Assembly (NCBI GenBank): GCA_963971535.1
Contig: OZ020598.1
Span: forward strand, 90,062,021 to 90,126,020
Source: Notolepis coatsorum
Lineage: Eukaryota; Chordata; Actinopteri; Aulopiformes; Paralepididae
DNA: 64,000 nt
Direction of reading: 5' to 3'
Part shown: piece by piece, positions 3,861 to 53,896 of the stretch
Layout: every line of letters begins with the position of its first letter
Numbering within the stretch: position 1 is the first letter of the stretch
The notes under the pieces: generated by a model
What the model was told of the DNA's origin: nothing
The model's input: the letters and a program-made list of their open reading frames with translations, nothing else
Databases searched by the model: none
Made by a program: the position numbers and the translations under genes

Positions 3861-3989
3861 AGTAGCACCTTGATGAGAAAATGTCCTGCAGGAAACCATG
3901 AAAGACAATAAAATGTACAGGCAACCATAAAGTCTAGATTGCCTGTGCAGTTACATTGAGTTACAGTCCCTATGGCCTGATGGCTGAGA

Positions 3990-12475: not shown

Positions 12476-15400
12476 GACCCAGAAGGGCTCGTGTTGGACC
12501 CAGAAGGGCTCGTGTTGGACCCAGAAGGGCTCGTGTTGGACCCAGAAGGGCTCATGTTGGACCCAGAAGGGCTCATGTTGGACCTAGAAGGGCTCATGTT
12601 GGACCCAGAAGGGCTCGTGTTGGACCTAGAAGGGCTCATGTTGGACCTAGAAGGGCTCGTGTTGGACCTAGAAGGGCTCGTGTTGGACCTAGAAGGGCTT
12701 GTGTTGGACCCAGAAGGGCTCATGTTGGACCCAGAAGGGCTCGTGTTGGACCCAGAAGGGCTCATGTTGGACCTAGAAGGGCTCGTGTTGGACCTAGAAG
12801 GGCTCATGTTGGACCTAGAAGGGCTCATGTTGGACCTAGAAGGGCTCGTGTTGGACCTAGAAGGGCTCATGTTGGACCTAGAAGGGCTCATGTTGGACCT
12901 AGAAGGGCTCATGTTGGACCTAGAAGGGCTCATGTTGGACCCAGAAGGGCTCGTGTTGGACCTAGAAGGGCTCATGTTGGACCCAGAAGGGCTCGTGTTG
13001 GACCCAGAAGGGCTCGTGTTGGACCCAGAAGGGCTCGTGTTGGACCCAGTAGGGCTCATGTTGGACCCAGAAGGGCTCATGTTGGACCCAGTAGGGCTCG
13101 TGTTGGACCCAGAAGGGCTCATGTTGTCGTGTTGGACCCAGAAGGGCTCATGTTGGACCCAGAAGGGCTCATGTTGGACCTAGAAGGGCTCATGTTGGAC
13201 CTAGAAGGGCTCATGTTGGACCCAGAAGGGCTCATGTTGGACCTAGAAGGGCTCATGTTGGACCTAGAAGGGCTCATGTTGGACCCAGAAGGGCTCGTGT
13301 TGGACCCAGAAGGGCTCGTGTTGGACCTAGAAGGGCTCATCTTGGACCCAGAAGGGCTCGTGTTGGACCCAGAAGGGCTCGTGTTGGACCTAGAAGGGCT
13401 CATGTTGGACCCAGAAGGGCTCATGTTGGACCTAGAAGGGCTTGTGTTGGACCCAGAAGGGCTCGTGTTGGACCTAGAAGGGCTCGTGTTGGACCTAGAA
13501 GGGCTCATGTTGGACCTAGAAGGGCTCATGTTGGACCTAGAAGGGCTCGTGTTGGACCCAGAAGGGCTCGTGTTGGACCTAGAAGGGCTCATGTTGGACC
13601 CAGAAGGGCTCGTGTTGGACCTAGAAGGGCTCATGTTGGACCCAGAAGGGCTCGTGTTGGACCCAGAAGGGCTCGTGTTGGACCTAGAAGGGCTCATGTT
13701 GGACCTAGAAGGGCTCATGTTGGACCTAGAAGGGCTCATGTTGGACCTAGAAGGGCTCATGTTGGACCCAGAAGGGCTCGTGTTGGACCCAGAAGGGCTC
13801 GTGTTGGACCTAGAAGGGCTCGTGTTGGACCCAGAAGGGCTCGTGTTGGACCCAGAAGGGCTCATGTTGGACCCAGAAGGGCTCGTGTTGGACCCAGAAG
13901 GGCTCGTGTTGGACCCAGTAGGGCTCATGTTGGACCCAGAAGGGCTCGTGTTGGACCCAGAAGGGCTCATGTTGGACCTAGAAGGGCTCGTGTTGGACCT
14001 AGAAGGGCTCATGTTGGACCCAGAAGGGCTCATGTTGGACCCAGTAGGGCTCGTGTTGGACCCAGAAGGGCTCATGTTGTCGTGTTGGACCCAGAAGGGC
14101 TCATGTTGGACCCAGAAGGGCTCATGTTGGACCTAGAAGGGCTCATGTTGGACCCAGAAGGGCTCATGTTGGACCTAGAAGGGCTCATGTTGGACCTAGA
14201 AGGGCTCATGTTGGACCTAGAAGGGCTCATGTTGGACCCAGAAGGGCTCGTGTTGGACCCAGAAGGGCTCGTGTTGGACCTAGAAGGGCTCATGTTGGAC
14301 CTAGAAGGGCTCATGTTGGACCCAGAAGGGCTCATGTTGGACCTAGAAGGGCTCATGTTGGACCTAGAAGGGCTCATCTTGGACCCAGAAGGGCTCGTGT
14401 TGGACCCAGTACGGCTCATGTTGGACCCAGAAGGGCTCGTGTTGGACCCAGTAGGGCTCGTGTTGTCGTGTTGGACCCAGAAGGGCTCGTGTTGGACCCA
14501 GAACGGCTCATGTTGGACCCAGAAGGGCTTGTGTTGGACCCAGAAGGGCTCATGTTGGACCTAGAAGGGCTCATGTTGGACCTAGAAGGGCTCGTGTTGG
14601 ACCCAGAAGGGCTCGTGTTGGACCCAGAAGGGCTCATGTTGGACCTAGAAGGGCTCATGTTGGACCCAGAAGGGCTCGTGTTGGACCCAGAAGGGCTCGT
14701 GTTGGACCCAGAAGGGCTCGTGTTGTCGTGTTGGACCCAGAAGGGCTCGTGTTGGACCCAGAAGGGCTCGTGTTGGACCCAGTAGGGCTCATGTTGGACC
14801 CAGAAGGGCTCATGTTGGACCCAGTAGGGCTCGTGTTGGACCCAGAAGGGCTCATGTTGTCGTGTTGGACCCAGAAGGGCTCATGTTGGACCTAGAAGGG
14901 CTCATGTTGGACCTAGAAGGGCTCATGTTGGACCTAGAAGGGCTCATGTTGGACCCAGAAGGGCTCGTGTTGGACCCAGAAGGGCTCGTGTTGGACCTAG
15001 AAGGGCTCATCTTGGACCCAGAAGGGCTTGTGTTGGACCCAGAAGGGCTCGTGTTGGACCCAGTACGGCTCATGTTGGACCCAGAAGGGCTCGTGTTGGA
15101 CCCAGTAGGGCTTGTGTTGTCGTGTTGGACCTAGAAGGGCTCGTGTTGGACCCAGAAGGGCTCGTGTTGGACCCAGAAGGGCTCGTGTTGGACCTAGAAG
15201 GGCTCATGTTGGATCCAGTAGGGCTCATGTTGGACCTAGAAGGGCTCATGTTGGACCCAGAAGGGCTCATGTTGGACCTAGAAGGGCTCATGTTGGACCC
15301 AGAAGGGCTCATGTTGGACCTAGAAGGGCTCATGTTGGACCCAGAAGGGCTCGTGTTGGACCTAGAAGGGCTCATGTTGGACCCAGAAGGGCTCGTGTTG

Positions 15401-15868
15401 GACCTAGAAGGGCTCATGTTGGACCCAGAAGGGCTCGTGTTGGACCCAGAAGGGCTCGTGTTGGACCCAGAAGGGCTTGTGTTGTCGTGTTGGACCCAGA
15501 AGGGCTCGTGTTGGACCCAGAAGGGCTCATGTTGGACCCAGAACGGCTCATGTTGGACCTAGAAGGGCTCGTGTTGGACCCAGAAGGGCTCGTGTTGGAC
15601 CTAGAAGGGCTCACCCAGAAGGGCTCATGTTGGACCTAGAAGGGCTCGTGTTGGACCCACTAGGGCTCATGTTGGCCCCAGAAGGGCTCATGTTGGACCC
15701 AGAAGGGCTCATGTTGGACCTAGAACGGCTCGTGTTAGACCCAGAAGGGCTCATGTTGGACCTAGAAGGGCTCATGTTGGACCTAGATGGGCTTGTGTTG
15801 TCGTGTTGGACCCAGAAGGGCTCGTGTTGGACCAAGAAGGGCTCGTGTTGGACCTAGAAGGGCTCATG
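12476..15868. repeat. Giant 21-bp minisatellite, ~160 copies with higher-order blocks
   Basis: The unit core is AGAAGGGCTCGTGTTGGAC. It has two almost binary variable sites: CTCGTG or CTCATG, and GACCCAG or GACCTAG. Extra 8-bp inserts (TCGTGTTG) break the register at about 13123, 14075, 14462, 14722, 14857, 15116, 15481 and 15797, marking larger blocks. Variant blocks carrying CCCAGTAGGG recur before several of these junctions, suggesting duplication of whole blocks. Since 21 is divisible by 3, several frames on both strands are open for hundreds of codons. These are artefacts of the period and I do not call a gene. Confidence 0.93.
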
Positions 15869-16185
15869 TAGGGCAAATTTACCTCTGGTTCAGTCCAACC
15901 TGCCCCAACTCCGTGATTTGGATAGCTATAATCTATTTATTTTTTCATAGAAAAGTTACATAACACAGATTTAAAATCGTATTTTCAATAAAGAAAATAA
16001 TAATAATAAAAATAATAATATAATATACGGTAAATAATAATAATAAATCTGCCAATGGGGGTAGAAAATGTAATTTACTCCAACTGACAGTTGTCCCTCA
16101 CGACAGTTGTGATTGGAGGATCACGAAAAGAGGGCAGTGTTGTGAGATCGGTCAATTAAACTGAACTTGTTTTTATGAAACGTCT
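15869..16185. other. AT-rich flank with a remnant of a CAGTTGTGATTGGAG foldback family
   Basis: (AATAAT)n-rich sequence at 15970-16050. ACAGTTGTGATTGGAGGATC at about 16101-16121 matches the foldback element at 35455-35566. Confidence 0.5.
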
Positions 16186-29927: not shown

Positions 29928-30217
29928 CAATGGGCCTGGTCTACAAGATACACTATACGACTAAGGTACCCATGTACATGTCAAAATACTTCCCAAAGGT
30001 CAGTGAATACCATGACCACAACACCAGAGGAAGCTCAACAAATCATGTTAAACCCAGATTCGGCTCAAACAAGGGACTAAACACGTTTCGCAATCATGCC
30101 ACATCAATGTGGAACGCCCTACCCAAAGCTGTAAAGGAATGTGAATCCCTACCCACATTCAAAACCGCTCTAAAAGAGCACCTACGGGAGGCTGCAATTC
30201 GAAACTGGCCACCGTAA
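29928..30217 (+). mobile_element. LINE C-terminus, continuation after insertion
   Basis: An open frame of 95 codons (GLVYKIHYTTKVPMYMSKYF ... WNALPKAVKE) is collinear with the end of the 22679-23707 protein, ending at WPP. It completes the split LINE that begins at 28384. Confidence 0.85.
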
Positions 30218-30369
30218 ATGTCCAAACCCCCCCACCCCCTCCTAATAGACAGTCTCCTCCCCACCGTATGTATATATTCTCTCCCCACCGTATGTGGTGC
30301 AGAAGGGGAACAGCGGATATAGCTGGGACGAACTGTGACAATTCCAGGCGGAGGACCCTGAACTGGGAC

Positions 30370-31028
30370 CGATGTGGCGGGCAGTGACCCGTGGGACCCC
30401 ACCCACTAAAGCATTGTTGCAGGAAGTAAACCCATGCCTCCGCAAGTTATACGGGCAGTGGGAGCGTTTCCGTCTACGCAACCAAGTACTGTTTCGACGC
30501 GTTAGTGACCCCCGAGACGGGGAAGAGGTCCTGCAACTGGTGGTGCCGATGGCACTGCGGCAACACATATATGAGACCCAACACGACTATGGGGGACACT
30601 TTGGTAGCCGGGGGACCATGGACCTGATGAGGCAAAGTTACTTCTGGATAGGGATGGCCGCAGAGGTGAATGGCTGGGTGCAACAGTGCAAACGGTGTGC
30701 GCTTGCCCGGGACGTGTTCCCTAAGTCCCAGGCCCGATGACCTGCACCAACGTGACTGCGCCCATGGAAGTTCTAGCTATGGACTTTACCGTGTTAGAGA
30801 TGTCAACGGGCGGCTATGAGAACGTCCTGGTGTTGACCGATATGTTCACCCGATTCACTATCGCCATCCAGACCAAAGACCAGACCGCCAAGACCACTGC
30901 CGCCGCACTCATCCGGCATTGGTTTGTGTACTATGGCTGCCCCGCTCGACTTCACGCCAACCAAGGTCGAAACTTTGAATCTGGCGTCATCAAGGAACTC
31001 TGTAAATTGTACGGGATCTCGTTCCTGA
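30370..31028 (+). pseudogene. Ty3/gypsy integrase fragment
   Basis: One frame (30372-30740) encodes an H2C2 integrase zinc-binding domain: QHDYGGHFGSRGTM with the paired Cys of CKRC. The next frame (30737-31075) holds the start of the catalytic core: [10 protein letters not shown] (first Asp) and [18 protein letters not shown] stands where the second catalytic Asp is normal, so that residue is Asn. The core then ends abruptly before the third acidic residue. The frames overlap with a shift at 30737, so this is dead coding sequence. Homology ends at about 31025, immediately before the heat-shock repeat. Confidence 0.8.
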
Positions 31029-31031
31029 ATA

Positions 31032-31044
31032 TTCTAGAATGTTC
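31032..31044. promoter_or_regulatory. Perfect heat-shock element displaced by hAT insertion
   Basis: TTCTAGAATGTTC matches the three-unit HSF site TTCnnGAAnnTTC. It belongs to the first of two ~51-bp tandem units upstream of hnrnpa0-like and is now 1.2 kb further away because of the hAT at 31050-32271. Confidence 0.75.
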
Positions 31045-31049
31045 GGCTA

Positions 31050-32271
31050 CAGTGATGCCGGTAACGCGTTACTAAGTAACGCGTTATTGTAATCTGATTA
31101 CTTTCCCCCGAAAATAGTAATCTAACGCGTTAATCTTTAAAAGCCAGTAATCTGATTGCAGTTACTTGTCCAAGTGGCTGTGCATTACTATTTCGTTACT
31201 ATCTCATCATAAATTCATAATGCAGGCGGAATGCAGTATTTTATTTCGTTTTCGACAGTCAAAAATACATTTTGAGCTGTTTTTCTTTTGGGAGTGACGT
31301 AGTGTGGCAGTGAAAGGGTTACACAAGAATGTGTCCCGCGGGCCGCGGCGTGACTGGACACTCTGTCTGTGAGTGACTCTGCTTTGGTACAATCACATTC
31401 CCCATCCACAGTCTGCGAATCAGAGGCAGAGTAGGGCGGGTCTTCACAGCACGTCATGTGACATATGCGCCAATCGTGTGACAGCAGGGCTCCGTCGTCG
31501 GAGAATTCCACCCCAAAACGCTTGGCAAAATTAAAAGTGAGTTTCTGTTCAGACTTCCATCCCAAAACGCTTGTCAGTCACTACTTCACGTTCATATGCG
31601 GAGGAAACAAAATACTGTCTACCGCTAAAAACAGCACATCCAATTGCATTGAAAGCATCTGGAATCACAACACTAGCCGACGCTTCGACTAGTAGGTACA
31701 GGAGGACTCGGAGGCCAGCCAAACAGCAAAAGAGAGAGATTGTTTCTTTCCCTTTTGATTAATGTATATTTGATGGTGGCAGAGCAAAAGCTCTTATTTG
31801 CCAGATTTACAGTTAATTTACATGTTAAAGAGAGACTGATTGTATGTTTATAGAGAGACATTTATAAAAACAATTTAATAGTTACAGTTGATATAATTGA
31901 ATAGTTCAGCCTGCATTTGTTAGATGTGAATGGATACACTGGTTTTGTAAAACCACTGGCTGGCTGCTATAATGCTGTGAGCATCATAGACTGTTGCTTT
32001 ACCATACTTGATGGTACAGAAGCTGAAGCACTAGTTTAACAATTTACGTTATGTGCAGAGAAACAAGTTAAAAACAATTTATGCACTTTCAATAAAGCGT
32101 TTAAAAAAAACGGTTGGTGGAACGACGACGACTTCGTAACCTAGTTACTTTCAAAGTAACTAAGTTACTCTGATAATCAAGTAATCAGTAAAGTAACTTG
32201 GATTACTTTTTAAAGGAGTAATCAATAATCAGTAATCGGATTACTTTTACAAGTAATCTGTGGCATCACTG
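31050..32271. mobile_element. hAT-type element (1222 bp) with 8-bp TSD in the hnrnpa0-like promoter
   Basis: The left end CAGTGATGCCGGTAACGCG and right end AATCTGTGGCATCACTG are inverted, with subterminal AAGTAACGCGTTA and AGTAATC.GATTAC motifs on both sides. The 8-bp duplication TTCGGCTA flanks it (31042-31049 and 32272-32279). The interior includes a fragment of the foldback family (about 31455) and one GTAGTGTGGCAGTGAAAGG remnant. No transposase is evident. Confidence 0.92.
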
Positions 32272-32296
32272 TTCGGCTATGAGATCATCACAAATG

Positions 32297-32361
32297 TTCC
32301 AGAATGTTCGATGTTCTAGAATGTTCGGCTATGACATCACCACAAATGTTCCAGAATGTTC
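32297..32361. promoter_or_regulatory. Cluster of three perfect heat-shock elements
   Basis: TTCCAGAATGTTC at 32297-32309, TTCTAGAATGTTC at 32314-32326 and TTCCAGAATGTTC at 32349-32361 each match TTCnnGAAnnTTC exactly. The last lies 13 bp upstream of a TATA box. Such sites bind trimeric HSF and suggest stress-inducible transcription of the gene at 32481. Confidence 0.82.
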
Positions 32362-32373
32362 GATCTGGTCTGG

Positions 32374-32381
32374 TATAAATA
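32374..32381 (+). promoter_or_regulatory. TATA box of the hnrnpa0-like gene
   Basis: TATAAATA lies 100 bp upstream of the start codon, placing initiation near 32400-32405. An AP-1-type TGACTCA follows at 32421-32427, probably in the 5' UTR. Confidence 0.75.
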
Positions 32382-32480
32382 CAAGCCGTGTTCCCCTTCT
32401 CCCACCACCTTCACACTAACTGACTCAACTGTCGCTTCACGGTCAACTAGAGACTTTAGCGAGGAGGAAAAAAAAAGAAA

Positions 32481-33509
32481 ATGGCAGACCAACTTTGTAA
32501 ACTGTTTGTTGGTGGACTGAACGTGGACACGGACGACGGCGGCCTGCGCAAACATTTCAAGCAATTCGGTAGTTTAACCGACTGCGTGGTCGTCGTGAAC
32601 AAGCAGCTGCAGAGGTCCCGCTGCTTCGGCTTCGTCACCTACACCTCGGGCGACGAGGCCGACGCGGCAATGGCGGCCAGGCCGCATGTCGTCGACGGCA
32701 CCACCGTGAAGCTGAAGTGGGCCGTGGCGTGGGAGGACGCCAACAAGCCTGAGGCGCTCGCCAAGGTGAAGAAAATATTCGTCGGCGGCTTGAAGGACGA
32801 CATCGAGGAGGAGGACCTCAAGGAGTATTTCGCGCAGTTCGGCGAGATCGAAAAGAGCGAGGTGATCTCCGAGAAGGAGAGCATGAGGAAGCGAGGCTTC
32901 GGCTTTGTCCACTTCACCGACAACGACTCGGCCGACAAGTCGGTGGTGGTGAAGTACCACACCATCAAGGGCCACAAGGTGGAGGTGAAGAAGGCCCTCA
33001 CCAAGCAGGAGATGCAGGCGTCGGGTCGCAGCGGCGGCATGATGATGAGGGGGGGAAGGGGAGGAGGAGGAGGAGGAGGAGGGATGAGGGGCATGCGAGG
33101 GAATCAAAATGGCTTCGGCGGTGGCGGCAGAGGAGGCTACAACAGCTATGATGGCGGCTACGGCGGCGGCGGGTACGGTGGCGGAGGAGGATACGGCGGA
33201 GGCGCGAGCTACGGAGGAAACGGTGAAGGCGCGAGCTATGGTGGTGGCGGTGGATACGGAGGAGGCACGAGCTACGGAGGCGGCGGCTACGGTGGCGAGC
33301 AGATAGCGGCAGGCTATGGCGGCGGAAACGGCTACAGCGGCAGTGACTTTGGCAGCGGTTACGGCGCGCAGCCTAGCGGCTACGGCCCCATGAAGAGCGC
33401 CACGCCTAGCAGCGGTTACGGCGCGCAGAGGAGCGCCACGCCCTACACCCGGGGTGGCGGAGGAGGCGGCGGCTACCAGAGAGGTGGCGGCTACAGCGGC
33501 GGTTACTAA
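32481..33509 (+). CDS. hnrnpa0: Heterogeneous nuclear ribonucleoprotein A0-like, intronless
   Basis: The product is a 342-residue nuclear RNA-binding protein of the hnRNP A/B family, which binds AU-rich and other mRNA elements. RRM1 has RNP2 LFVGGL (8-13) and RNP1 RCFGFVTY (47-54). RRM2 has IFVGGL (99-104) and RGFGFVHF (138-145). From about residue 182 a Gly/Tyr/Ser-rich low-complexity tail (GGYGGG repeats) carries SGYGPMKS, typical of hnRNP A0. A single uninterrupted exon fits HNRNPA0, which is intronless in vertebrates, so a retrocopy cannot be told apart by structure. The ATG follows an A-rich leader and is the first in the transcript predicted from the TATA box. One oddity is the inter-RRM linker, where the strongly conserved KRAVSRED of hnRNP A proteins reads KWAVAWED: two Arg are Trp and the Ser phosphorylated by MAPKAPK2 in human A0 is Ala. 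GC-rich third positions and the open frame argue for a functional gene. Confidence 0.9.
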   Translation: MADQLCKLFVGGLNVDTDDGGLRKHFKQFGSLTDCVVVVNKQLQRSRCFGFVTYTSGDEADAAMAARPHVVDGTTVKLKWAVAWEDANKPEALAKVKKIFVGGLKDDIEEEDLKEYFAQFGEIEKSEVISEKESMRKRGFGFVHFTDNDSADKSVVVKYHTIKGHKVEVKKALTKQEMQASGRSGGMMMRGGRGGGGGGGGMRGMRGNQNGFGGGGRGGYNSYDGGYGGGGYGGGGGYGGGASYGGNGEGASYGGGGGYGGGTSYGGGGYGGEQIAAGYGGGNGYSGSDFGSGYGAQPSGYGPMKSATPSSGYGAQRSATPYTRGGGGGGGYQRGGGYSGGY

Positions 33510-34260
33510 AATCAAAATGGCGGTCACCATTTCGACGACCGTTAGCGAACAGCCACAACCTTCCGGAACATTCTAGAACATCGAACATCCTGGCATTACA
33601 TCAAGATGTCTGATAGTGGCAGCCAGTCCAAGACGGTGGTGGAGGAGGAGACAACATCCGTGGCAGAGGGAGTTGGAAGAGGCGTGTAGCTGTCGTTTGT
33701 ATTAAGAGTTGAATCTGCTTTTTATTTGCGTACATTCTAGTTTTTTTTGTTTTGTTTGAAACTAGTCCATGTAGGATTGTTTTTGTTTGAAACTATTCTC
33801 TATATATGATTATTTTTCCCTTTTGCATTTTAAGCAAGTAGTAAAGAATTTTTTTTCCTTAAGTAAGATTGATGTGTTTTACTTTTATGGGGATGAGGAA
33901 CGCATGTGCTATGGATTTCAATTTTTATCTTAGAGCTATGTCTTCACTGATTACATACGTTTGTATAAGTATCCATAGGTCTTTAGTAAAGGCAGGAGAG
34001 ATGCTGCGGGATTAAAGCAGTTTCATTGTTCCTTCCCACGTGTTATGTACAAATCAACGTCAGTAATTTCCCCTCCCCCACCACAAGTACACATAGTGTC
34101 TTCATCAGCCTAAATATTGTTCATTTTTTCATTTACTTACAGCAATCTCATGTATTGTATACTTTAATAATGTCTGAAGATCAAAACTTACAATTGTTCA
34201 AAAGCATTTTGGTATGCATATGTATGTTCATTTTAAATAAAACGTTATTCAAACTTAGTT
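33510..34260 (+). other. Probable 3' UTR of hnrnpa0-like
   Basis: T-rich sequence follows the stop at 33507-33509. An AATAAA hexamer lies at 34236-34241. A heat-shock-type inverted repeat lies at 33561-33578. A 27-codon ATG frame (33606-33689) is present, with no known match. Confidence 0.55.
33561..33578. promoter_or_regulatory. Four-unit heat-shock-type element downstream of hnrnpa0-like, inverted relative to the upstream array
   Basis: TTCCGGAACATTCTAGAA contains four alternating perfect TTC/GAA pentamers. 33566-33586 is the exact reverse complement of 32306-32326 (21 bp), so the coding region is bracketed by an inverted repeat. Confidence 0.75.
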
Positions 34261-35454
34261 ATTACTTAGTTATTTTACTCATTTAACCAGGTTGCCTTCA
34301 GTTGTTCCCACAGGTCTTAAAGTGATTTATGACTCCTCATCTTCTCTAGTTGGCATCCTTACCCTTGTTTAACCCCTTTCTCAGGTGGGTGAAATGGTTA
34401 CAGAACCGGATGTAGTCTACCCACAGCCAATGCATGTAGGCTTTGGAGGGTTTGCCTTGTTTTTTTTAATCAAAGTAATTGTGGTTTCTAGTCCTTTTGT
34501 ACATCTCTTAATAACCCTGGCTTTTTTTTTTTTTACATATTCACATATTGTGGACTTTGAGGCCTGCTCATTATCTTTGATTATTCCTACATTTAAGTGT
34601 TCTTACTCTTATCCCAGTAGGCTATCCCAGCCAAAATAGCCGTAGCAGTTTGTTTGTAGGCTACACTACAGGACCCTGTTGAGTTACCTGGGGTCGATTG
34701 TAATAGGAGTCTGAAATATCTCTTTAGGATATCCACATCCAGCAAACTAGGTATGTAAATCAACCTGTCTTCACTATGTGTTGGTCAACCATGTATGGCA
34801 TTTAATTATTTTGTGATGGTACACAAGTGTACTGTGACATTTTATCTTTACAAAAGTCTTGCTTTTATTTATAGTTGCTCATTCATAGATTTTTCAATGC
34901 GTCTCAATATCTAACTAATATTTAAACAAAAAGGGGGGTGGTTCGGTCCTTGATCATTAATTTAAAGGGGTGGAGGGATACCCAACGTCTGTTCCTTCAT
35001 TGTAAGTGAAATACTGGAATGGTACATTGGCGTCTCCCTCCAGGCAACCTTCACCTGCCCAGTGTCTCATTCTGTTCCTTCTTCCTGTTTCTCCTCCAGG
35101 TTGCTATGGTAACCTGGGTGCCAGGGCATCACCCCGCTAAGGACGGGTGTGTGACTCCATGCCGTCCGGGGTGACCAGAGAGGTGGTCATAAGCCCACAC
35201 CCTCCTCCTCAGGTGATGTCAGATTCCAGGAAGGATTCACCCGTTTGTTCGTTGTGATGTCGAAAAGTTTTTAATGCAGTGTCTGAATGCTCATGCATAA
35301 ATGGCACATGACACTTGTCTAATGTTTGTAATGCAACTTAAAGTGTCTTTATTAAGTAAGATATTAAGTGAACTTTAATTCACTTAATAATTTCTCACCT
35401 AAAGCATTAAATGTGAGTTTATTTGTATCCCTTCCAGTATACAGCAATCTCAAT
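34261..35454. other. Intergenic sequence; one RFX X-box-like palindrome
   Basis: No gene is supported. GTTGCTATGGTAAC at 35100-35113 is a perfect fit to the palindromic RFX X-box type (GTTGCnATGGnAAC), but no promoter is seen near it. A small palindrome of ATTAAGTGAA type lies at 35361-35386. Confidence 0.4.
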
Positions 35455-35566
35455 CCCCGCCCTCTTTTCTTGATCCTCCAATCACAACTGTTTCCTTCCT
35501 CAGACAAACAGTTTGAAGAAGGCAACAGTTGTGATTGGAGCATCAATAAATGGGGGAGGGGCTTGT
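35455..35566. mobile_element. Small foldback element (CCAATCACAACTGTT family)
   Basis: TGATCCTCCAATCACAACTG at about 35471-35490 pairs with CAACAGTTGTGATTGGAGCA at 35523-35542. Outer blocks CCCCGCCCTC and GGGGGAGGGG also pair. A related remnant lies near 16101. Confidence 0.65.
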
Positions 35567-35605
35567 AAATGGTAATGAGTTGTATCCCTGTTGCCTAAAC
35601 CCGAA

Positions 35606-35875
35606 TGTAGTGGGAAGGTCAATAACTTGGTCATGACGACAAGGTCCTCTCTTTAGCCTTTGGCGTGGTTTATTATTTCACATATCATTATGCACCATGA
35701 GACGTTCTCTCTGTGAGAGGCGACGGAGGAAGAGACAGAGGGGGAGGTAACATTCCCTTATATACCTCTTACCTGACGTCAGCTCCAATAGCTACATCTC
35801 CTTGCGCCTATAGCGCCCTCTTGTGGAAACAGTTAAGCAGTTACATGCAATCATATATAACTCATAAACTCAACA
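35606..35875 (-). repeat. Copia 3' LTR
   Basis: Bounded TGTAGTGGG...CTCAACA on the plus strand (minus strand TGTTGAG ... CTACA). Contains the shared CCTATAGCGCCCTCTTGTGG block. The element's polypurine tract CATAAGTGGGAG (minus strand) adjoins it. Confidence 0.82.
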
Positions 35876-35996
35876 CTCCCACTTATGGCTGACGTGTATA
35901 CTGTACAACTTTTCCAAAAACAACTTTCAAAGAAAATAATACAGTTCAGAACATCAAAAAGAATATGGCAGTCAATATTACATAACAGGCAATATT

Positions 35997-36719
35997 TTAC
36001 ACACCAAACATGACCTCTGCAAATCTTCTCAATTTCAGTTTGGAGACAGGCTTGGTCATAGCATCTGCAACCATGTCGTCTGTAGGACAATAAACAAGTG
36101 TCATCCTTTCTTCTCTGATGACAGATCTGATGAAGTGATATTTTATATCCACATGTTTACACCTCTGTCGGCACACAGGGTTTCTAGAGAGTGCAATGGT
36201 TCCCTGGTTGTCTTCATAAACAACAGTTTTCTTATATACATAGGTATCCATTCCTTCGAGCAGTTGTTCTAGATAAATACATTCCTGTATTGTCATAGCT
36301 AGAGCCATGTATTCGGCTTCACAAGTTGATAGTGCCACTGTGGGCTGCTTCTTTGTTTTCCACGAAACCAGTGAGCTGTTTGTGTTCAAACTCACACAAT
36401 ACGCCCAGTCTGCATCACTGTAGGCTTTAAGCCCTAAGCCCTCGCTGCTCTTTCTGAAACAAAGCTGTTTATCTGCTGTACCTTTGAGATAACGAAAAAC
36501 AAGTTTTGCTGTAATCCAGTGCTCCTCTGTGGGGTCAGCAAAATGCTGTGACAATTTACTCACTACAAAACATAGGTCAGGGCGAGTACATGTTGTCAAA
36601 TAAATGAGGCTACCTACAGCTTCTCTGTACATTTTTACATCTGTCAATTTCTGAGCATCCTCTTGGTAGTAGTTTTTGATCACATGGTGTTTCCCTTGTC
36701 CTACATTCTTGCATGTCAA
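35997..36719 (-). pseudogene. Copia RT C-terminus and RNase H
   Basis: An open frame of 240 codons holds the RT connection block (GSLIYLTTCTRPDLCFVVSK) and RNase H with its acidic residues: YSDADWAYC (Asp), STCEAEYMAL (Glu), VYEDNQGTIA (Asp) and KHVDIKYHFIR (Asp). This is the best-preserved part. It joins by a frameshift near 36700 to the preceding RT piece (36894-36610). Confidence 0.85.
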
Positions 36720-37458
36720 AACGTTTCAGGATCTTTTCCACATATCTCTTCTGGGATATTTTTACACAACTGGCAGACTGTTCGAAGTCCATGCCTAGAA
36801 AATGCTTTAACCTGCCTAGGAATCTGGTGGAGAGCATACTTTTCACCTGCTCTAGGTTTCTAGTGTTGTCTGCTGCGATGATCAAATCATCCACTTCGGT
36901 ATTTAAACATAGAATCCACTTCTGTATTTAAACATGGAATCCACTCCTGTATTTAAACATGGAATCCACTCCTTCTGTATTTAAACATGGAGTACTCTCC
37001 TCCTGTATTTAAACATGTAGCTACCCTCCTTCTGTATTTAAACATGTAGCTACCCTCCTTCTGTATTTAAACATGGAGTACCCTCCTGTATTTAAACATT
37101 TAGCTACAAACCTGGCTTTGTACTTGTCGTGGCCTTCAATACCCTCCTTGATTGAGTACACCCATTTTCCTCCCACTGTCTGTCTGCCCTCTGGTAACTT
37201 GGTTAGAGTAAAGGTGTGGTTGTCCTCTAGGGACCTCATCTCCTCATCCATTGCTCTTTCCCATTTCCTTGATTCAGGGGACACCATCGCCTCTTTAAAG
37301 GTCTGAGGTACTCCACTCACTACTCTGTAGCAGTAATCAATGCTGGTAAGTGTACTGTCATCCTCGTCACTTCCTCTCCGGGCATAGTCTTTCAGATACT
37401 TTGGGGGTTTGTGTTCCCGTGAGGGATACCTCCCACTGCATGAGGCACGTGACGTCAC
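36610..37458 (-). pseudogene. Copia RT, core deleted and replaced by tandem repeats
   Basis: The RT entry (WERAMDEEMRSLEDNHTFTL, VGGKWVYSIKEG, YKARFVAK) is at about 37330-37100. The sequence then runs into the minisatellite (36893-37112). It picks up again at VDDLIIAADNTRNLEQVKSM, just at the catalytic YVDD box. The intervening palm region is absent. Confidence 0.82.
36893..37112. repeat. Minisatellite (GTATTTAAACATG units, 25-29 bp, 8 copies) inside copia RT
   Basis: The units GTATTTAAACAT(G/A)(G/T)A are followed by ATCCACTCCT or GCTACCCTCCTTCT. The seed matches the local RT codons around VAKCLNT, so the array grew from the element's own sequence. Confidence 0.88.
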
Positions 37459-38802
37459 CCTCGGGTGCTCCTCGTCATCATCCTCTGGGGGTTGCTGACT
37501 GTCTGCACGACTGTGCTAAGTACACTAGGCTGAGGTGTCTCTATTTCTTCACACCTTTCTCTGGAGTCCAGCTCTGGCTCCTCTGTCTGTGTCTCGTTCT
37601 CACATGTCGTCTTTGTGACAAATTTGACTAGCCTGTGTTTTTGCACTTTCCCTTTACCGGGATAATAGACTAGGAAAGCGGGGCTTCCTTTGTCGTGCCC
37701 TACAAAGAGTCCTTTTTCACATCTGGACTCAAGCTTTCCTCTGTCCTGCTGGTAAGCATAACACACTGATCCAAATGCGTGCATTCTAGCTAGATTACAT
37801 TTCTTTCCTGTCAGTGCTGTATACGGGGTGGTGCCCGTGTGCTTATTAAAACACCTGTTTCTGGTGTAAGCGGCTTCTTGCACTGCATAATGCCATAGAC
37901 TCTTAGGTAAGTTACCAGCTATTAGCTTACACCTAGCCATTTCGAAAAGAGTACGTCCTTCCCTCTCTGCCACCCCGTTCTGGTGTGGGGAGTACGGACA
38001 TGACGTCTCGTGTCTTATCTTGTTCCTTCTCAACAGTGATTGGAAAGTTCCGTTGTCGGACCTCAAGCATCTTGTTGCCATAAGGGGCTACGTCTGCCAG
38101 GAATTTATCCGTGGCCTGGAGTGTGTCACTCTTTGCTTTGAGAAAGTAAACAAACACTGCCCCTGTACACACATCTGTAAAAGACTGTACATATCTAAAG
38201 CCACCTATGGACTCGTTGCTTACTGAACCGGCTAGATCTGTGTTAACTAGCGCAAGTGGTACCTTTACTTTTTCTGTGGGACTTCTGTTTCTCGATTGAG
38301 TGAACTTCCCCTTTATGCACACTTCACATTCTTTGTCAGGTCTACGCTTTTCACCTTTAATGTGCATGCCTTCTGTCACTGCTTGCAGTTTCAGTAAATC
38401 CTCGTAATTACAATGACCCATGATCTCATGCCATGTCTGAATATCATGACTGACAGTCACATTACACATATCATTATTATTACACTTGTCGTTGTCATTA
38501 CACTCTGTTTGTAGATAATACATTCTCTTGTACACCTCTATGTTAAATCGCATACCGTCAGGCTCTACAAAAACATATTTACCTTCATTGAAGAACACTT
38601 TGGCACCGTTCGCAGTAGCAGATTTTACAGAGAATAGTTCTTGTGGGAACGAGGGTATGTAGAGAGCGTTCTTTAACACTCCCTTGCGCCAACCCGTAAG
38701 TGCGCTTCCCGTCTGCCAGCTCCATGCTGTGTCTCTCCGGCTCGAATGTGTTCTCAAAGTTCTTGAATCGATTCCTGTCGTTGATGATGTGGGACGACGC
38801 AC
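37455..38802 (-). pseudogene. Copia protease and integrase, frameshifted
   Basis: A protease active-site block (TGASSHIINDRN) near 38790 lies out of frame with what follows. LYIPSFPQELFSVKSA leads into the GAG-pre-integrase zinc domain (WHEIMGHCNYEDL, ECEVCIKGKF: H..H..C..C). The catalytic core has LVNTDLAG (Asp), RSDNGTFQ (Asp, in a second frame after a shift near 38075) and QNGVAEREG (Glu). So the D,D,E triad is still readable, but across two frames. Confidence 0.82.
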
Positions 38803-39802
38803 CTGTGTCCCTTCAGTCCCTTCCTTTGGGCCTGCTGCTGCTGCGTTGGCTGGGTGACGTACGCTGTCTGCGCCTCGAAGATGAAGTCCTCTCGTCTCGC
38901 TACTCTCCGGGCGTCGTCTCGACTTGTCTCAAGTCCACCGTCGTCGCCATCTTGTCCACAGCCGCCATCTTGTCCACAGCCGCCATCTTGTCCATGCGCG
39001 TACCGTGCGCTCTGGTCGCGTTTCTTTCTACACACTTTGTCTGTGTGCCCTGTGGATTTGCAGAAGCTACACCAAACAGTCTTTGTGCAGTTATCTTTCC
39101 GGTGCCCTTTTTCTCTGCATCGCCAACCACTTCGGTGCCCTTTTTCTCCGTCGTGGGCCTGGTCTTCTCTCTCGGTGCCGCCCGGGCCTTCAGCACCCTC
39201 TCTCCCGCCTCCGCGGCGACTGGGTGGGTGTCTTCTGAGGCCTCAAAGTTCTGCAACATGGCCTTGAACTCTCCCAGCGACATGTCCGCTGAACCGTGTG
39301 TCACCACTAGTGTGAGCGGTTTGTACAGCTCCGGTAGTCCTCTCATAACCATCGCCATTAGTCCATCGCTTGGTGCTTCTCCTGCACTCTTAAGCGCCGT
39401 AATGATCTGCTCAGCTCTGATGACGTATTCGGTCACAGTCTCGGTGTGCGCCTTCTTCAGCGCGGTTAGTGTTATGTAGAGGGATACGATTCGGGGTCTT
39501 CCCCGTCCGATATAATGTTCTCTCAACACTTTCAGGCTCTCTCTGCCTTTGTCCTTAGTGTCACGGAATATCAGCCCCAAGCTTGAGTCGTCTAGCAGTG
39601 GTGCTAACTCACAGTATGCGTCGGCATTTTGCTTGGTGTCCAGGGCTAGCGCTTCCGCCGTTAGTGGTCCTGTGGGGGCCGTCAAGATCGCTGTCTTCAG
39701 TCCCACACTGTGCATGCAGCACAACATTCGCTCTTCCCAGAGCTCATAGTCCTCTGCTCTTCCGTTGAACGAGGGCCATTTGCTCTTCCCTTTGGTCGCC
39801 AT
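38754..39802 (-). pseudogene. Copia gag with zinc knuckle in a shifted frame
   Basis: The frame from 39802 (MATKGKSKWPSFNGRAEDYE...) is a copia-type gag (UBN2/DUF4219-like) with GLPELYKPLTLVV and a Lys/Arg-rich end. The CCHC knuckle WCSFCKSTGHTDKVC lies in another frame near 39060, so a frameshift separates them. It is followed by a short CGQDGG triplicate repeat (about 38940-38995). Confidence 0.82.
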
Positions 39803-39929
39803 CCTCTTTTGATGGTAGGCGTAGCTTTAGCTCCCATTAGCTTAGCTTTAGCCACACGGTGCTCCCGGTGCTAAACTAGCCTATACTTTAGCTAAACTTG
39901 CTACCCTTATTATTTTGCCCCTGCGTGAT

Positions 39930-44760: not shown

Positions 44761-44903
44761 CCCTAACCCTAACCTTAACCCTAACCCTAACCTTAACCCT
44801 AACCTTAACCCTAACCCTAACCCTAACCTTAACCTTAACCTTAACCCTAACCCTAACCCTAACCCTAACCCTAACCTTAACCTTAACCTTAACCCTAACT
44901 CTA
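44761..44903. repeat. Telomere-like (CCCTAA/CCTTAA)n array
   Basis: About 23 hexamers: vertebrate telomeric CCCTAA mixed with CCTTAA, roughly three to two. The array is interstitial and inside the TIR element. Ends degrade to CTAACTCTAAGC. Confidence 0.92.
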
Positions 44904-45555
44904 AGCATAACCCACTTCGAAAGAGGGCCCAAAGGTCACGATCAGGGCTCGAGCCTGCCAGATGAGTAGCAATCAGCGCGGCTGCAAGGGATTACCTGAT
45001 CAAGAGGCTCCTATATCAACTGGCAGATCCTGTCATCCGGTGTCGCAGTGTTAAACTGCCTTCCCAGGTACGACGTCTCGACCTGAAGCCCTGCTACCCG
45101 CTCTTGTTGTTATTCCCTGTTCTAACCTCCCTCTCTTGTGCCCAAGGACCTCCGTTCCAGTGTGCCCGTCTGGACCCCTGGTGCTGGACTACGGAGTTCC
45201 TGTTCTCAACCCTGACACAGCCGGTGTCTACCTTCCTCCCGCACTGCACTAGGAGTGCACCTGCCCAAGGAACATTCTCTCATACTGCACAAGGAGTGCA
45301 CCTGCTCAAGGACCATTCTCTCGTACTGCACAAGGAGTACCCCTGTGCTACCCCCCCAAGAACATTCATCCCCATATGTTGTACATTCCTGCATGTGATT
45401 CTTGTCTGCTTGGGGGAAACAATTAAAACACCCTAAACCGCTCCATTCTCTCTACTCCTGTGTTCGCTATTGGGCTCCACAAGAACCCCTATCCTCACAT
45501 AACCACTTTAAAGCAGAGAAAATATGTACAAGGCGGAAGAGACCCTTCGGCGCTA

Positions 45556-47637: not shown

Positions 47638-50436
47638 TCACAAAGTCAGGGGGTCATGGTCGTCATCAAGAGTGTCGGGGAGCCTTGGCAACTCTATCAG
47701 CCTCGCCACGGGCCGGGTGTATGTCCGCCCTTGGACGAGCACTTCTGCCGCTCTGACCTTTCCGTCGGCACCAGTGATCACTTTGCTTACGCGGCCGGCA
47801 GGCCACATAGCTCGGGGTAGTGACTGGTCGATAATCATGACGACTGTTCCTTCTGTCAAATTGTCTCTTTCTTTCACCCATTTCTGGCGGGTCTGTAGAG
47901 ACGGTAGATAGTGGAGTAGGAAACTGTTCCAAAACTTGTCAGCCAATACTTGACTGTACCTCCACATTCTTCGGCCGTTCGCTTCTTCAGGCCTGTACAC
48001 TGTCTGTGGTAGCGCGGGGTCCAGCCGCCCCATCAAGAGAGTGTTGGGGGTGACTGGGTCGACATCTGCTACATCACTTGAGACGTAACCGAGGGGCTTT
48101 GAGTTCAATACTCCCTCGATCTCCGTGAGGACTGTCGTGAGGACTTCTTCCGCCACGGTCTGGGCCCCAAGCACGGCGTACAGGGCTGTCTTTATTGAAC
48201 GTACTTCTCGTTCCCAAGTTCCACCGAAGTGAGGTGCATTCGGGGGATTAAACTGGAAATCAATCTGATATGGAGCGAGGTGGGTCTTAAGTTCTGGGCC
48301 CATAGCTTGGAAGCTCTCTCTCAGCTCTCTTTCTCCGCCTTTGAAGTTTGTCCCATGATCAAACAATAATATAGACGGTTTCCCTTTCCGCGATGTGAAT
48401 CTCCGGAAGGCCATAAGGAATGAGTCTGTGCTCATGGTTGGAAGGAGTTCTATGTGTATCGCTCGGGTGGTCATGCATTTGAATACAATACCACACCGCT
48501 TCTCAGTCCCTCTTCCTTTCTTTACATACAGCGGGCCGAAACAGTCCATACCGGTGGAGTGAAAAGGCTTGTCGCCGAGTCGGAGGCGACAGGGGGGTAG
48601 GTCAGCCATCCGGGGTATACTGGGCTGTGCTCGCCATTTACGACAGTCTAGACAAGTCCGCTGGAAGCGTCGTACTGCTTCTCTCCCTTGCAGTATCCAA
48701 TAACGACGTCTGATCTCCGCGAAGACTCTCTCTGCCCCGGCGTGGTGCACGTCCTCGTCGTATTTCTTTATGATAAGCTCTGTGACCTTGTGTCGGCTGT
48801 TTAAGACTATCGGGTACTTGACGTCATCCGGTAAGTCTGGGGCTCTCCTCAGACGACCACCCACTCTGATGAGATTATGGGCGTCGCTCTCAGGGGCTAA
48901 GTGGAGCAATCTGCTGTCTGACGGGACTGGCTTTGATCCCTGTAGACAGTCTAGCTCGTCGGGGAACGAGTCTCTCTGGGCTCGCTGTAGCAGAAGGAGT
49001 TCTGCTTCTTCGTAGTTAGCTGCAGTAATGTCAGTAGTGGGCTGAACCTCTGGGTGGTGCCACAGGAATGTCTTTAGCTGCGCACTCTCAAGGGTGAGGC
49101 AGTCGTCTATGTTGGGGTCTGTGGGGACGAGTGTGTGTGTCAACCCACAGAACATAGATTTCTTCTTCTCTGCCTCCTCTTCACTCGCCTCCCGTGGGGT
49201 GGGTGTAGGCCACTCTTCTTCCGGGAGCTTGAGGAACTCGGGCCCGTCACTATATAGATTGTGACGGGTGAGGTCATCCAGGGACATTCCCCGGGTGATG
49301 ACGACAGCTGGGTTGTGTTTTGTGTCCACATACCTCCAGTTTGCTGCTTCTGTTAAATCTTGGATCTCTGTGATTCTGACTCCCACGAAGACCTTGTATC
49401 TACACGAATCAGACTGGATCCATGTGAGTACGGTCATGGAGTCTGACCACAGGATTGTTCTTTGCACCGGAATGGTGAGTTCACGTTGGATTAACGTGGT
49501 GAGTTGCGCTCCTGCTAGGGCTGCGCAGAGCTCTAGACGCGGGATAGATTGTTGCTTGCGGGGGGCTATTCTTGAGCGAGCCAGGATGAAGGCAGTATGT
49601 ATTTCTCCTCCCTCCTCTCGGGCACGCAAGTAGGCCACCGAGCCGTAGGCTACTTCGGAGGCGTCGCTGAAGACGTGCAGGTCCATCTGGCACGTCTCCG
49701 GCCTCACTGTGGGTGGGAAGTAGCTGCGGCGTATGTTGACACCTGGGAGTGAGCTGAGTTCTGTCTCCCACTCTCTCCATGTTGAGGCAAGGTGTTCGGG
49801 TATGGGGTCGTCCCAGCCCTGGTCCTTGTCCCATAACGCTCTTACAATCATCTTTGCCCTGGTGGTGTAAGGTAGAATACATCCCAACGGGTCATATTGT
49901 CTGGCGAGTGTTCTGTATACACTCCGTCTTGTGGTCGGTAGTGCAGTCGACCTTCCCTGCTCCTTGGTCAGGGGTGTGTGTTTATAATGGAGCGAGTCTG
50001 TTTTGAAGCGCCAGACTAGTCCTAATGTCATTTCTTGGGCTTCTCCTGGGATGGTCGCCATCCAGGTCTCGCTGCTTGCTGCCTTGTCCTCGGGGGAGAG
50101 GCTGCGCAATACTTGAGGGTCGCTGCTGGCCCACTGCCGGAGATCAAAGCCGCCTTTGATCAGGGAGGCGCGGAGCTTGAGTAGGAGGGCCTTGGCTTCT
50201 TCTGGCGTCGAGACGCTTTGCAGACAGTTGTCCACGTAGAAACTATTTCCTACACTTTGTCGGACCTCTTCATCAGCTGCTGAGTCCTCGGCGACGTGTT
50301 TTTGCAGTGCAAACGTAGCACAGCATGGGCTGCATGTGGTTCCGAAAGGGAGGACTTCCCATTGATAGATGGATGGTTGCTCGTCCCCGATCCTCTCTCT
50401 CCATAAGAACCGCAGCAGGGGCTTGTCCTCCTCCAC
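47638..50436 (-). CDS. BEL pol, second part: RT end, RNase H, integrase
   Basis: 932 residues downstream of the TGA. RT continues with LPFGTTCSPCCATFALQ and the polymerase box FYVDNCLQS (about 65). RNase H-type domain: LHVFSDASEVAYGS (about 254) and TILWSDSMTVLTWI. Integrase zinc domain: the H..H of DVHHAGAERVF and the C..C of CLDCRKW (about 552-600). The catalytic core follows: GMDCFGP (about 630), LLFDHGTNFKGG (about 692) and GGTWEREVRS (about 742), which keeps the D,D,E residues. The frame is complete to the stop and in phase with the first part, with only the TGA between. Confidence 0.93.
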   Translation of the reverse strand: MEEDKPLLRFLWRERIGDEQPSIYQWEVLPFGTTCSPCCATFALQKHVAEDSAADEEVRQSVGNSFYVDNCLQSVSTPEEAKALLLKLRASLIKGGFDLRQWASSDPQVLRSLSPEDKAASSETWMATIPGEAQEMTLGLVWRFKTDSLHYKHTPLTKEQGRSTALPTTRRSVYRTLARQYDPLGCILPYTTRAKMIVRALWDKDQGWDDPIPEHLASTWREWETELSSLPGVNIRRSYFPPTVRPETCQMDLHVFSDASEVAYGSVAYLRAREEGGEIHTAFILARSRIAPRKQQSIPRLELCAALAGAQLTTLIQRELTIPVQRTILWSDSMTVLTWIQSDSCRYKVFVGVRITEIQDLTEAANWRYVDTKHNPAVVITRGMSLDDLTRHNLYSDGPEFLKLPEEEWPTPTPREASEEEAEKKKSMFCGLTHTLVPTDPNIDDCLTLESAQLKTFLWHHPEVQPTTDITAANYEEAELLLLQRAQRDSFPDELDCLQGSKPVPSDSRLLHLAPESDAHNLIRVGGRLRRAPDLPDDVKYPIVLNSRHKVTELIIKKYDEDVHHAGAERVFAEIRRRYWILQGREAVRRFQRTCLDCRKWRAQPSIPRMADLPPCRLRLGDKPFHSTGMDCFGPLYVKKGRGTEKRCGIVFKCMTTRAIHIELLPTMSTDSFLMAFRRFTSRKGKPSILLFDHGTNFKGGERELRESFQAMGPELKTHLAPYQIDFQFNPPNAPHFGGTWEREVRSIKTALYAVLGAQTVAEEVLTTVLTEIEGVLNSKPLGYVSSDVADVDPVTPNTLLMGRLDPALPQTVYRPEEANGRRMWRYSQVLADKFWNSFLLHYLPSLQTRQKWVKERDNLTEGTVVMIIDQSLPRAMWPAGRVSKVITGADGKVRAAEVLVQGRTYTRPVARLIELPRLPDTLDDDHDPLTL

Positions 50437-50439
50437 TAG

Positions 50440-53400: not shown

Positions 53401-53859
53401 GCTGGGGGAAGACGCTAGTTGAGGTGATCGGCTTCTGGTAGTACTCGTTGGAGATCCGTTCTCCTGTCGCGTACCGAGGAGATCCATCTCCTGGGTGCGT
53501 GTCTCTTCTTGTGGTGGGTCGGGTTCCATCCCTGGAGAGCTTTCTTTATCCTGGAGCTCTCCGGGGACTACCTCTTCGACGTTGGCGGGGGGTAAAGTCA
53601 TGTCAGGTCCCTCCTGGTCCCCACCGTGAGCTTGGTCAGTTACGTTAGAACCCACTAGGGTCTCTACTGGCGGGGTAGCCTGGTCGGTAGGGTTGGACAT
53701 AATTTTACTATCTACTTTTTCCGCGTTTAACGTCTGTAGAAAGCTAGGTAGTATACTGGCAACGTAATCCTCTAAGTACTGAGGTGTCTGCCGTCTACGC
53801 TGCGGGCGATCTATTTTAGGAGAACCGTTTTGTGGAGTGTTCATCATTGGCCATGTCAA
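50440..53859 (-). CDS. BEL gag-protease-RT start, ending at an in-frame TGA
   Basis: 1139 residues. The order is: basic N-terminus; Glu/Arg/Ala-rich coiled coil (about 155-270); proline-rich linker; gag capsid-like domain of DUF1759 type (about 440-595); Cys/His knuckles (CPYCEKEHWLSHC and CYRCARSHMAADC, about 676-735); aspartic protease VLDDGSE (about 785); and RT from about 1000 to GDIKGMF, the first catalytic Asp. The TGA then cuts the palm domain. The context is TGA-CTA-G. BEL elements usually encode one gag-pol frame, and here both halves are in the same frame. Confidence 0.93.
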   Translation of the reverse strand: MTWPMMNTPQNGSPKIDRPQRRRQTPQYLEDYVASILPSFLQTLNAEKVDSKIMSNPTDQATPPVETLVGSNVTDQAHGGDQEGPDMTLPPANVEEVVPGELQDKESSPGMEPDPPQEETRTQEMDLLGTRQENGSPTSTTRSRSPQLASSPSEADKMLAQAFIASLAASTERDRLQAQTLSEREHSSMERERLQAQQRSDEDRIRLEIRRLQTEENMGRDRAEAQRAAAEAQRAAVGAQREAERNLALTKREAERDRLQAQIMEQLITRVTPPPSARGSRASSRQGSRAPSPTRSSDPEPGQQREPIPLSEPLSRPVQARPSNREEPAYTAERLNRRLQDLDDLPEEEEEGEEESQAQQHHRTPQDQEVQYSPDFTPAALRYRPPTQFTGELDARPAQRNSTWVRGPWYPAGTSPSRHVRGDSPRRPLLQRSPMCQPSMASYLGTPTFPDFTHENRAQYTELRMCLETMMSDVTDEPYKYAILLKHLKVPRAHNIALAYSTSTTPYTAALAALDQRYGRIWDYVIQEIRNIDRLPPATDNRSLDDLSIKVQSLVGMLGVQKEKGMHELYANSNVERILEKLPPARQERFRWQRDHRDPNGPEPSLLDLADFLAREVNSLQLDTFVRSTPSSREGPRRANDGRRLVTVMHQAESVPSNKNHSTPSMKEKWKIVCPYCEKEHWLSHCDTFKKMTADEVSQWIKSNRRCYRCARSHMAADCRLKKRCSRCDGAHLDVLHDSNRRKPAPSSSTKASVMYIDPASSGGARVLLKVVRITLSYEDKVMDTYAVLDDGSEKTLLLASAAAQLGLRGSEETMTIRTIRRDLKAIKGENVSFTIAASGQPERRYRITNAFTSQDIGLSQYTYPIAKLMDKYVHLRQLPIPLIDGATPTLLIGSDHAHLIVPMDRVHTGPRGCPAAVETRLGWTLQGPLSRSTNRTAATSCLHSRVTEEDTTLLQHVERLWTLETMPFKNEKKHIRSKEDIYAIALLERGTKRVKVNGVMRYATPLLRREGMPTFHAPKEATERYLLNTERRLARDPAQATVYRAEIDKLITAGHIKKIDIKEADQTTESWYVPHHKVHHNGKDRIVFNCSYQIGSQNLNKELLPGPTLGPSLLGVLLRFRQDKVAISGDIKGMFLQV

Positions 53860-53896
53860 TATTAATACTACTATATTAATATTACGCTAGTTACCC

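Follow-up and report, generated by a model that had tools for sequence, protein, structure and literature searches.

In the present study, we analysed an hnRNP A0-like gene of Notolepis coatsorum whose TATA box stands behind an array of perfect heat-shock elements (HSEs). The gene lies in a window of 64 kb, the whole stretch of DNA that was analysed (C43:90062021-90126020 of the 3.42-Gb assembly), and its position behind such an array, proposed in a first-pass annotation, is supported by the sequence. The array did not evolve locally. Its source appears to be a dispersed, Ty3/Gypsy-like family of long terminal repeats (LTRs), and the unusual part is that duplicated copies of the gene have had their promoter replaced. 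Of the mechanisms that this arrangement suggests, the likeliest is that a promoter donated by a retrotransposon would put these copies under HSF1-driven induction.

The gene, its promoter and the elements that touch them are arranged in the window as follows.

30372-31020, plus strand: truncated integrase fragment of Gypsy type, with H2C2 zinc finger and rve, directly next to the array
31021-31049, plus strand: distal end of the HSE array, displaced by a hAT-like element, with a five-unit HSE at 31022-31044
31042-31049, plus strand: left 8-bp target-site duplication, TTCGGCTA
31050-32271, no strand: hAT-like element of 1,222 bp with CAGTGATGCC ends, inside the HSE array
32272-32279, plus strand: right 8-bp target-site duplication, TTCGGCTA
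32272-32363, plus strand (the LTR sense strand is minus here): proximal HSE array, from LTR U3 units, with exact HSEs at 32297, 32314 and 32349
32374-32381, plus strand: TATAAATA box, common to the parental-type copies
32382-32480, plus strand: downstream core promoter and 5' untranslated region (UTR), homologous across the eight copies described below
32481-33509, plus strand: hnRNP A0-like gene, the window copy of the eight-locus set; a single open exon of 342 aa with two RRMs and a Gly-rich tail

The exact TTCnnGAAnnTTC sites that had been named at 31032, 32297, 32314 and 32349 are all present. Two further sites had been overlooked, at 31022 (plus) and 31027 (minus), which together with 31032 form the unbroken five-unit HSE at 31022-31044. 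The tandem repeat is also present, with a period of 52 bp rather than the 51 bp first given, and the last HSE does adjoin the TATAAATA box at 32374, with its end 12 bp upstream. The four sites no longer form one array: the 1,222-bp hAT-like insertion has shifted the 31032 site 1.2 kb away from the others, and a single promoter with two tandem units including 31032 was ruled out by this split. On both strands of the window, eight exact three-unit HSEs were found, every one inside 31022-33578, whereas 100 dinucleotide shuffles averaged 0.38 and never exceeded 4. When one mismatch was allowed, there was no clear excess (21 HSEs versus 15.15 expected, with 21 reached by 10 of 100 shuffles); the excess therefore resides in the exact sites, and these, as copies of a single repeat, do not count as independent. 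Contiguous inverted nGAAn units near the core promoter, as in heat-shock genes, are present. Rfam gave no match within 30000-36000, and a bacterial-type promoter scan of 32200-32500, uninformative for fish, returned nothing.

The promoter (window 32272-32480) was used as a whole-genome query, for which 40 of 1,199 first-look candidates were scored. Of the 77 match rows, 9 belong to hnrnpa0-like loci and the remaining 68, by our own count, to about 32 other places, where the matches were confined to the HSE part, with one row extending 7 bases further. Twenty hand-picked stretches across contigs, covering 21 of these roughly 32 places, served as the dispersed sample. On the strand opposite to the gene, the dispersed copies have a common order of TGTAGTGATTGTAATGG, 52-bp units (each with two HSEs and TGATGTCA), AATAAA and an end with CACTACA; several copies are truncated. 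Using simple end patterns, ten LTR intervals of 331-801 bp were delimited at both ends in nine of the 20 stretches, and the two end patterns were not both found in the other 11. Identical 4-bp flanks surround seven of the ten intervals and are absent at three (L023, L029 and L037); among the seven, two in L026 are mutual duplicates and two are low-complexity ATAT. AATAAA occurs in all ten, and TATATA or TATAAA in four. The intervals thus show TG...CA ends, a polyadenylation signal and a short target duplication, as expected of LTRs, and can be read as solo LTRs.

One LTR pair was found, about 10.5 kb apart, with two and three exact HSEs in its LTRs. It encloses a primer-binding-site-like CTGGTGACCCCGACG and a purine-rich tract ahead of the 3' LTR, both recognised by eye. 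The frames of its interior are broken; a gag-like DUF7041 match was obtained in one of the four frames scanned, and the pol-like stretch, judged by eye, gave no Pfam match above the cut-off. Similarity does not single out the donor LTR: the parental LTR reaches at best 97.8% over 93 bp (with L042), others reach up to 99% (with the window copy), and the fit is about equal. On viral contigs, no relative was confirmed, and a single 16-base match was seen. The first-pass annotation had considered that the HSE units might be part of a dispersed repeat unrelated to the gene, and this holds for the origin of the array in the LTR family, not for its function. With the LTR as query (40 scored of 3,676 first-look candidates), the copies in L047-L049 had no exact HSE and no second LTR within the stretches fetched. 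On the three chromosomes examined, this HSE-less LTR copy is embedded in a larger near-identical repeat (99.5-99.9%), so that another element may be what spreads the LTR relics. Separately, a truncated HSE array at L036:3160-3600 lies near an apparent Kelch/BTB-type exon (by eye), possibly another gene with a nearby array.

A protein search of the genome detected eight close, near-identical hnrnpa0-like loci.

C43, 32481-33509 of the window: the window copy (W)
C43:90.86 Mb: L040a and L040b, a tandem pair
C43:87.05-87.08 Mb: L042 and L043
C6: L041
C43:11.60 Mb: L045, of parental type
unplaced contig C1852: L044, of parental type, 99.3% identical to L045 over 5.8 kb and perhaps its other haplotype

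More distant matches included a 73% paralogue (L046) about 22 kb from L045, one of 74% on C23, one of 54% on C1 that contains a stop, and numerous weaker RRM hits. The two tandem RRMs and the Gly-rich C-terminal tail place the window gene in the hnRNP A/B family. In the protein tree, for which 117 of 125 rows were kept and in which support values are rough because the bootstrap had not settled, W, L043 and L045 group together (100/95) beside A0-like proteins of Gadus and Coryphaenoides (99/76), with branch lengths of 0.008 for L045, 0.042 for W and 0.10 for L043.

The difference between the two kinds of locus lies directly upstream of the TATA box. Exact HSEs are found 9-12 bp from it in six of the eight loci (W, L040a, L040b, L041, L042 and L043), and all six have at least two proximal exact HSEs and an intact TATA box. 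In the parental-type L044 and L045, the nearest exact HSE is at least 310 bp away. There, a solo LTR with ATGA on both flanks ends about 250 bp upstream, and in L045 the native stretch of about 245 bp between LTR and TATA contains two TGACGTCA sites resembling the cAMP-response element (CRE), a YY1-like AAGATGGCGGC and CCAAT, with no three-unit HSE; the upstream region of L044 resembles it. In the six HSE copies, this native CRE/YY1 stretch is gone and the LTR units run directly into GGTCTGGTATAAATA (TCTGGTATAAATA in L043). The Gypsy-type integrase fragment of the window also lies beside L040a and L042, and partially beside L040b and L041. Within the 2.5 kb fetched, the tandem neighbour L046 has neither a three-unit HSE nor TATAAA. 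L045 is likely the ancestral locus because of this tandem neighbour, its short protein branch and its conserved linker, and because an A0-like and an A0b-type part are combined in the same way in a protein record from a grenadier.

In the upstream flank of L043, three blocks correspond to L044 with their order conserved (86-100%), alongside further matches whose order or orientation differs. An origin from the parental locus, by deletion between an upstream LTR and the TATA box, would fit this correspondence; part of it may be due to repeats, and a separate insertion may be considered instead of a deletion. An origin as mRNA retrocopies was ruled out, since the TATA box is retained in the copies, as are, in most of them, the 3' flank and some of the DNA around the gene. 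Overall, the LTR-family origin of the array, the absence of the native upstream promoter from six copies, the fused promoter at six loci and the open frames can be read from the DNA itself.

The arrays have also been targets of insertion. The element at 31050-32271 has the 8-bp target duplication, the terminal inverted repeats and the dispersed copies of a hAT transposon, its end matching 39 other places (40 of 152 candidates scored). The site that it occupies is uncut in L040a, L040b, L041 and L042, and the L043 array is free of this insert. A different hAT-like element, 1,186 bp long or 1,189 bp with its divergent last bases, interrupts the HSE core of L040a and is flanked on each side by TTCTAGAA. 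Two different hAT insertions among six HSE promoters, whose arrays measure from 113 to about 200 bp, suggest open chromatin at the arrays; with n=2, this is a hint only. Transposons have been reported to favour heat-shock promoters in Drosophila, and our literature search on such a preference found no report.

In the mechanism that we propose, the array is a piece of the U3 enhancer of a dispersed Ty3/Gypsy-like LTR and lies antisense to the gene. A rearrangement in a duplicated hnrnpa0-like copy would have removed the native CRE/YY1 region and joined the array to the copy's own TATA box, presumably in this order; the fused promoter now stands at six loci. HSF1 acts through HSEs, and adjacent perfect trimer sites confer inducibility, as in the hsp genes. 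Two or more such sites, 9-12 bp from the TATA box, would be expected to make these promoters HSF1-inducible and hsp-like: on heat shock, HSF1 trimers would bind the arrays and drive transcription from the native TATA box, and the altered proteins would then act in the stress response. Their proteins are open and under some constraint, with a changed linker between the RRMs, and the HSE copies are therefore probably a heat-inducible, changed set of hnRNP A0 genes that does not take the place of the parental one. The first-pass annotation's expectation that HSF1 induces the gene is, on this arrangement of sites, a reasonable one.

The state of the proteins was examined in all eight loci, which have open frames of 295-342 aa that align without frame-shifted stretches. 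Nonsynonymous changes were compared with neutral expectation in seven of the 15 possible pairs among the six HSE copies; these pairs are not independent, and the model had no transition bias. A whole-gene deficit was obtained in six of the seven pairs (p 0.0008-0.015), and a deficit in the RRM part in five. The arginines of the linker after RRM1 (KRAVAREDA) are kept in 13 other aligned proteins and in L044 and L045. The window copy reads KWAVAWEDA at this position and is a derived hnRNP A0 member, not an equivalent one; KWAVAWED is found in W and L040, and the linker is partly deleted in L041 and L042 and altered in L043. Between W and L042, 36 of 295 codons differ in the coding sequence, and the flanks have 20 mismatches in 1,098 and 24 in 1,338 aligned columns. 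The coding sequence is thus about twice as divergent as the flanks, synonymous sites included, for which gene conversion or CpG decay may be considered.

We consider it probable that the account as a whole is right, namely an LTR-derived array, a promoter fusion, HSF1 inducibility, a changed hnRNP A0 set and an incidental 3' HSE. Several observations weigh against it. The liver of Atlantic salmon contains less HNRNPA0 protein when temperature is raised (ordinary copy, chronic exposure; PMC5809918). The pair L042-L043 had no significant whole-gene deficit (p = 0.062), and the RRM part was not significant in L041-L043 (p = 0.24) and L042-L043 (p = 0.13). In simulation, the chance of having no stop was P = 0.18-0.59 per copy, and open frames alone are therefore weak evidence. 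The linker is altered in all six HSE copies, as in early decay. Between W and L042, the array differs at 2 of 113 positions and is no more conserved than the flanks. In 61 dispersed units, the HSE core was not significantly more conserved (p = 0.24, or p = 0.50 when the CRE-like site was counted among the other positions); these units had been picked by similarity to the query, which makes the test weak. Selection on the HSE core thus found no support in either test, among the dispersed units or between copies. LTR-derived arrays are, moreover, often silenced.

The arrays may alternatively be inert LTR leftovers, with the duplicated copies silenced or barely transcribed and drifting towards pseudogenes. 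The array that is no more conserved than its flanks, the change in all six HSE copies of a linker that is invariant or almost invariant in relatives, and the transposon pieces that surround the copies, two of which are cut by hAT elements, all favour such decay. We nevertheless regard it as unlikely, since the frames are open in eight of eight loci and aligned without frame shifts, nonsynonymous changes are too few in six of the seven tested pairs, and all six copies retain an intact TATA box together with two or more intact proximal HSEs of exact sequence. Still less probable, in our judgement, is that the U3 units act mainly through TGACATCA, a CRE-like site of the ATF/CREB type that would substitute for the native CREs and leave the genes constitutive or cAMP/ATF-responsive, with the HSEs playing a minor part. 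The two TGACGTCA sites of the native promoter agree with such a role, as does the lower mean divergence of the TGACATCA stretch in the 61 dispersed units (0.010 versus 0.023 for the non-CpG HSE core, as raw means). Against it, one of the two proximal units of the window copy reads TGAGATCA, and the HSEs are more numerous, exact and closest to the TATA box.

The 3' side of the gene was the remaining part of the earlier proposal, in which the array was mirrored beyond the stop codon and antisense transcription was thought possible. The features concerned are the following.

33547-33669, no strand: filler of about 120 bp, replacing about 300 bp of native 3' UTR
33561-33593, minus strand: 3' HSE patch, a four-unit HSE with a 28-bp inverted match to the array, present in one of the eight copies, that of the window

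The four-unit HSE at 33561-33578 exists and starts 52 bp past the stop codon. The inverted repeat is likewise real and longer than the 21 bp described, pairing 32299-32326 with 33566-33593 over 28 nt (27/28 complementary, 96%). It is no shared mirrored array, being a 28-bp patch inside filler that the other seven copies lack. The native stretch of about 290-340 bp that follows the stop in L041-L045 is absent from the window copy, and L040a and L040b have a deletion where it would lie. Among the 40 best rows, the patch matches the window's own array and the units in 19 of the 20 dispersed stretches equally well (27/28). That this HSE is a functional second promoter, driving antisense transcription through the gene after heat, would agree with a perfect four-unit HSE so close to the stop and inverted relative to the 5' array. 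We hold it to be very improbable, given that the HSE occurs in one of eight copies, within filler DNA, and that the minus strand has no TATAAA or TATATA in 33301-33600. The 3' HSE would rather be an incidental piece of filler.

Other repeats were observed elsewhere in the window. Bel/Pao-type retrotransposon frames occupy 47638-53886 (minus), with a 933-aa open reading frame (ORF) at 47638-50439 that matches Peptidase A17, DUF5641 and integrase H2C2 and a 1,148-aa ORF at 50440-53886 that has no Pfam match. A broken Copia-type retrotransposon, of a class uncommon in fish, lies at 37455-39826 (minus) with copia gag, gag_pre-integrs and an SH3-like domain; the ORF at 35997-36725 is by eye the apparent end of this element and has no Pfam match. 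About 25 CCCTAA copies form an interstitial telomere-like array at 44761-44913. There are also two very long minisatellites, at 3987-6970 (24/36-bp periods) and 12476-15869 (21/42-bp periods), the former open in several frames across hundreds of codons.

In the human genome, satellite III of the nuclear stress bodies provides repeated HSF1 targets in a vertebrate; it is pericentromeric and yields noncoding RNA, whereas the HSEs described here lie in the promoter of a protein gene. The HSE copies belong to the same protein family as teleost hnrnpa0a, hnrnpa0b and hnrnpa0-like, and share TATA box and 5' UTR with the parental-type copy, which unlike them has a CRE/YY1-type promoter. Distribution of HSEs by transposons is already known from Caenorhabditis Helitrons and Arabidopsis ONSEN. 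Helitrons spread clustered HSEs in Caenorhabditis and place genes under HSF-1 control; occupancy by HSF-1 and polymerase is reported there, as is up-regulation (Garrigues et al. 2019, PMC6927752). In both cases a transposon family disperses clustered HSEs; Helitrons are rolling-circle DNA transposons of nematodes, whereas here an LTR element of a fish is concerned, whose array, a predicted HSF1 target, is fused directly to a TATA box. C. elegans fbxa-215, which has Helitrons upstream, has been studied functionally and is reported to go down after heat shock (PMC12062965). It is likewise a member of a multicopy family tied to HSF-1 by upstream transposons, but here the native promoter has given way to one and the same fused promoter in six copies. 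ONSEN, a copia-type LTR retrotransposon of Arabidopsis activated by heat through plant heat-stress factors (Cavrak et al. 2014, PMC3907296), resembles the present family in being an LTR retrotransposon with a heat-responsive element, which in our family is a putative one; it is a copia element of a plant, whereas ours is Gypsy-like, with the one LTR pair examined degenerate. Our literature search, which covered titles and abstract openings, found no vertebrate LTR family with tandem HSEs among the papers listed. Heat-induced hnrnpa0 in fish was likewise absent from the papers listed on that subject.

A wider picture can be drawn tentatively, and we think it somewhat doubtful. The LTR family may have spread HSF1-responsive enhancers through the 3.4-Gb genome, and one fragment may have replaced a constitutive hnRNP A0 promoter, creating an amplified, heat-inducible, linker-altered set whose arrays are open in the germ line and hence received two independent hAT insertions. 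The states before and after the change are kept in one genome, the native promoter in two copies and the fused promoter in the other six, so that promoter capture and its effects on heat induction and on the protein are directly testable from these copies. The LTR family, in turn, is a natural set of dispersed HSE insertions in fish.

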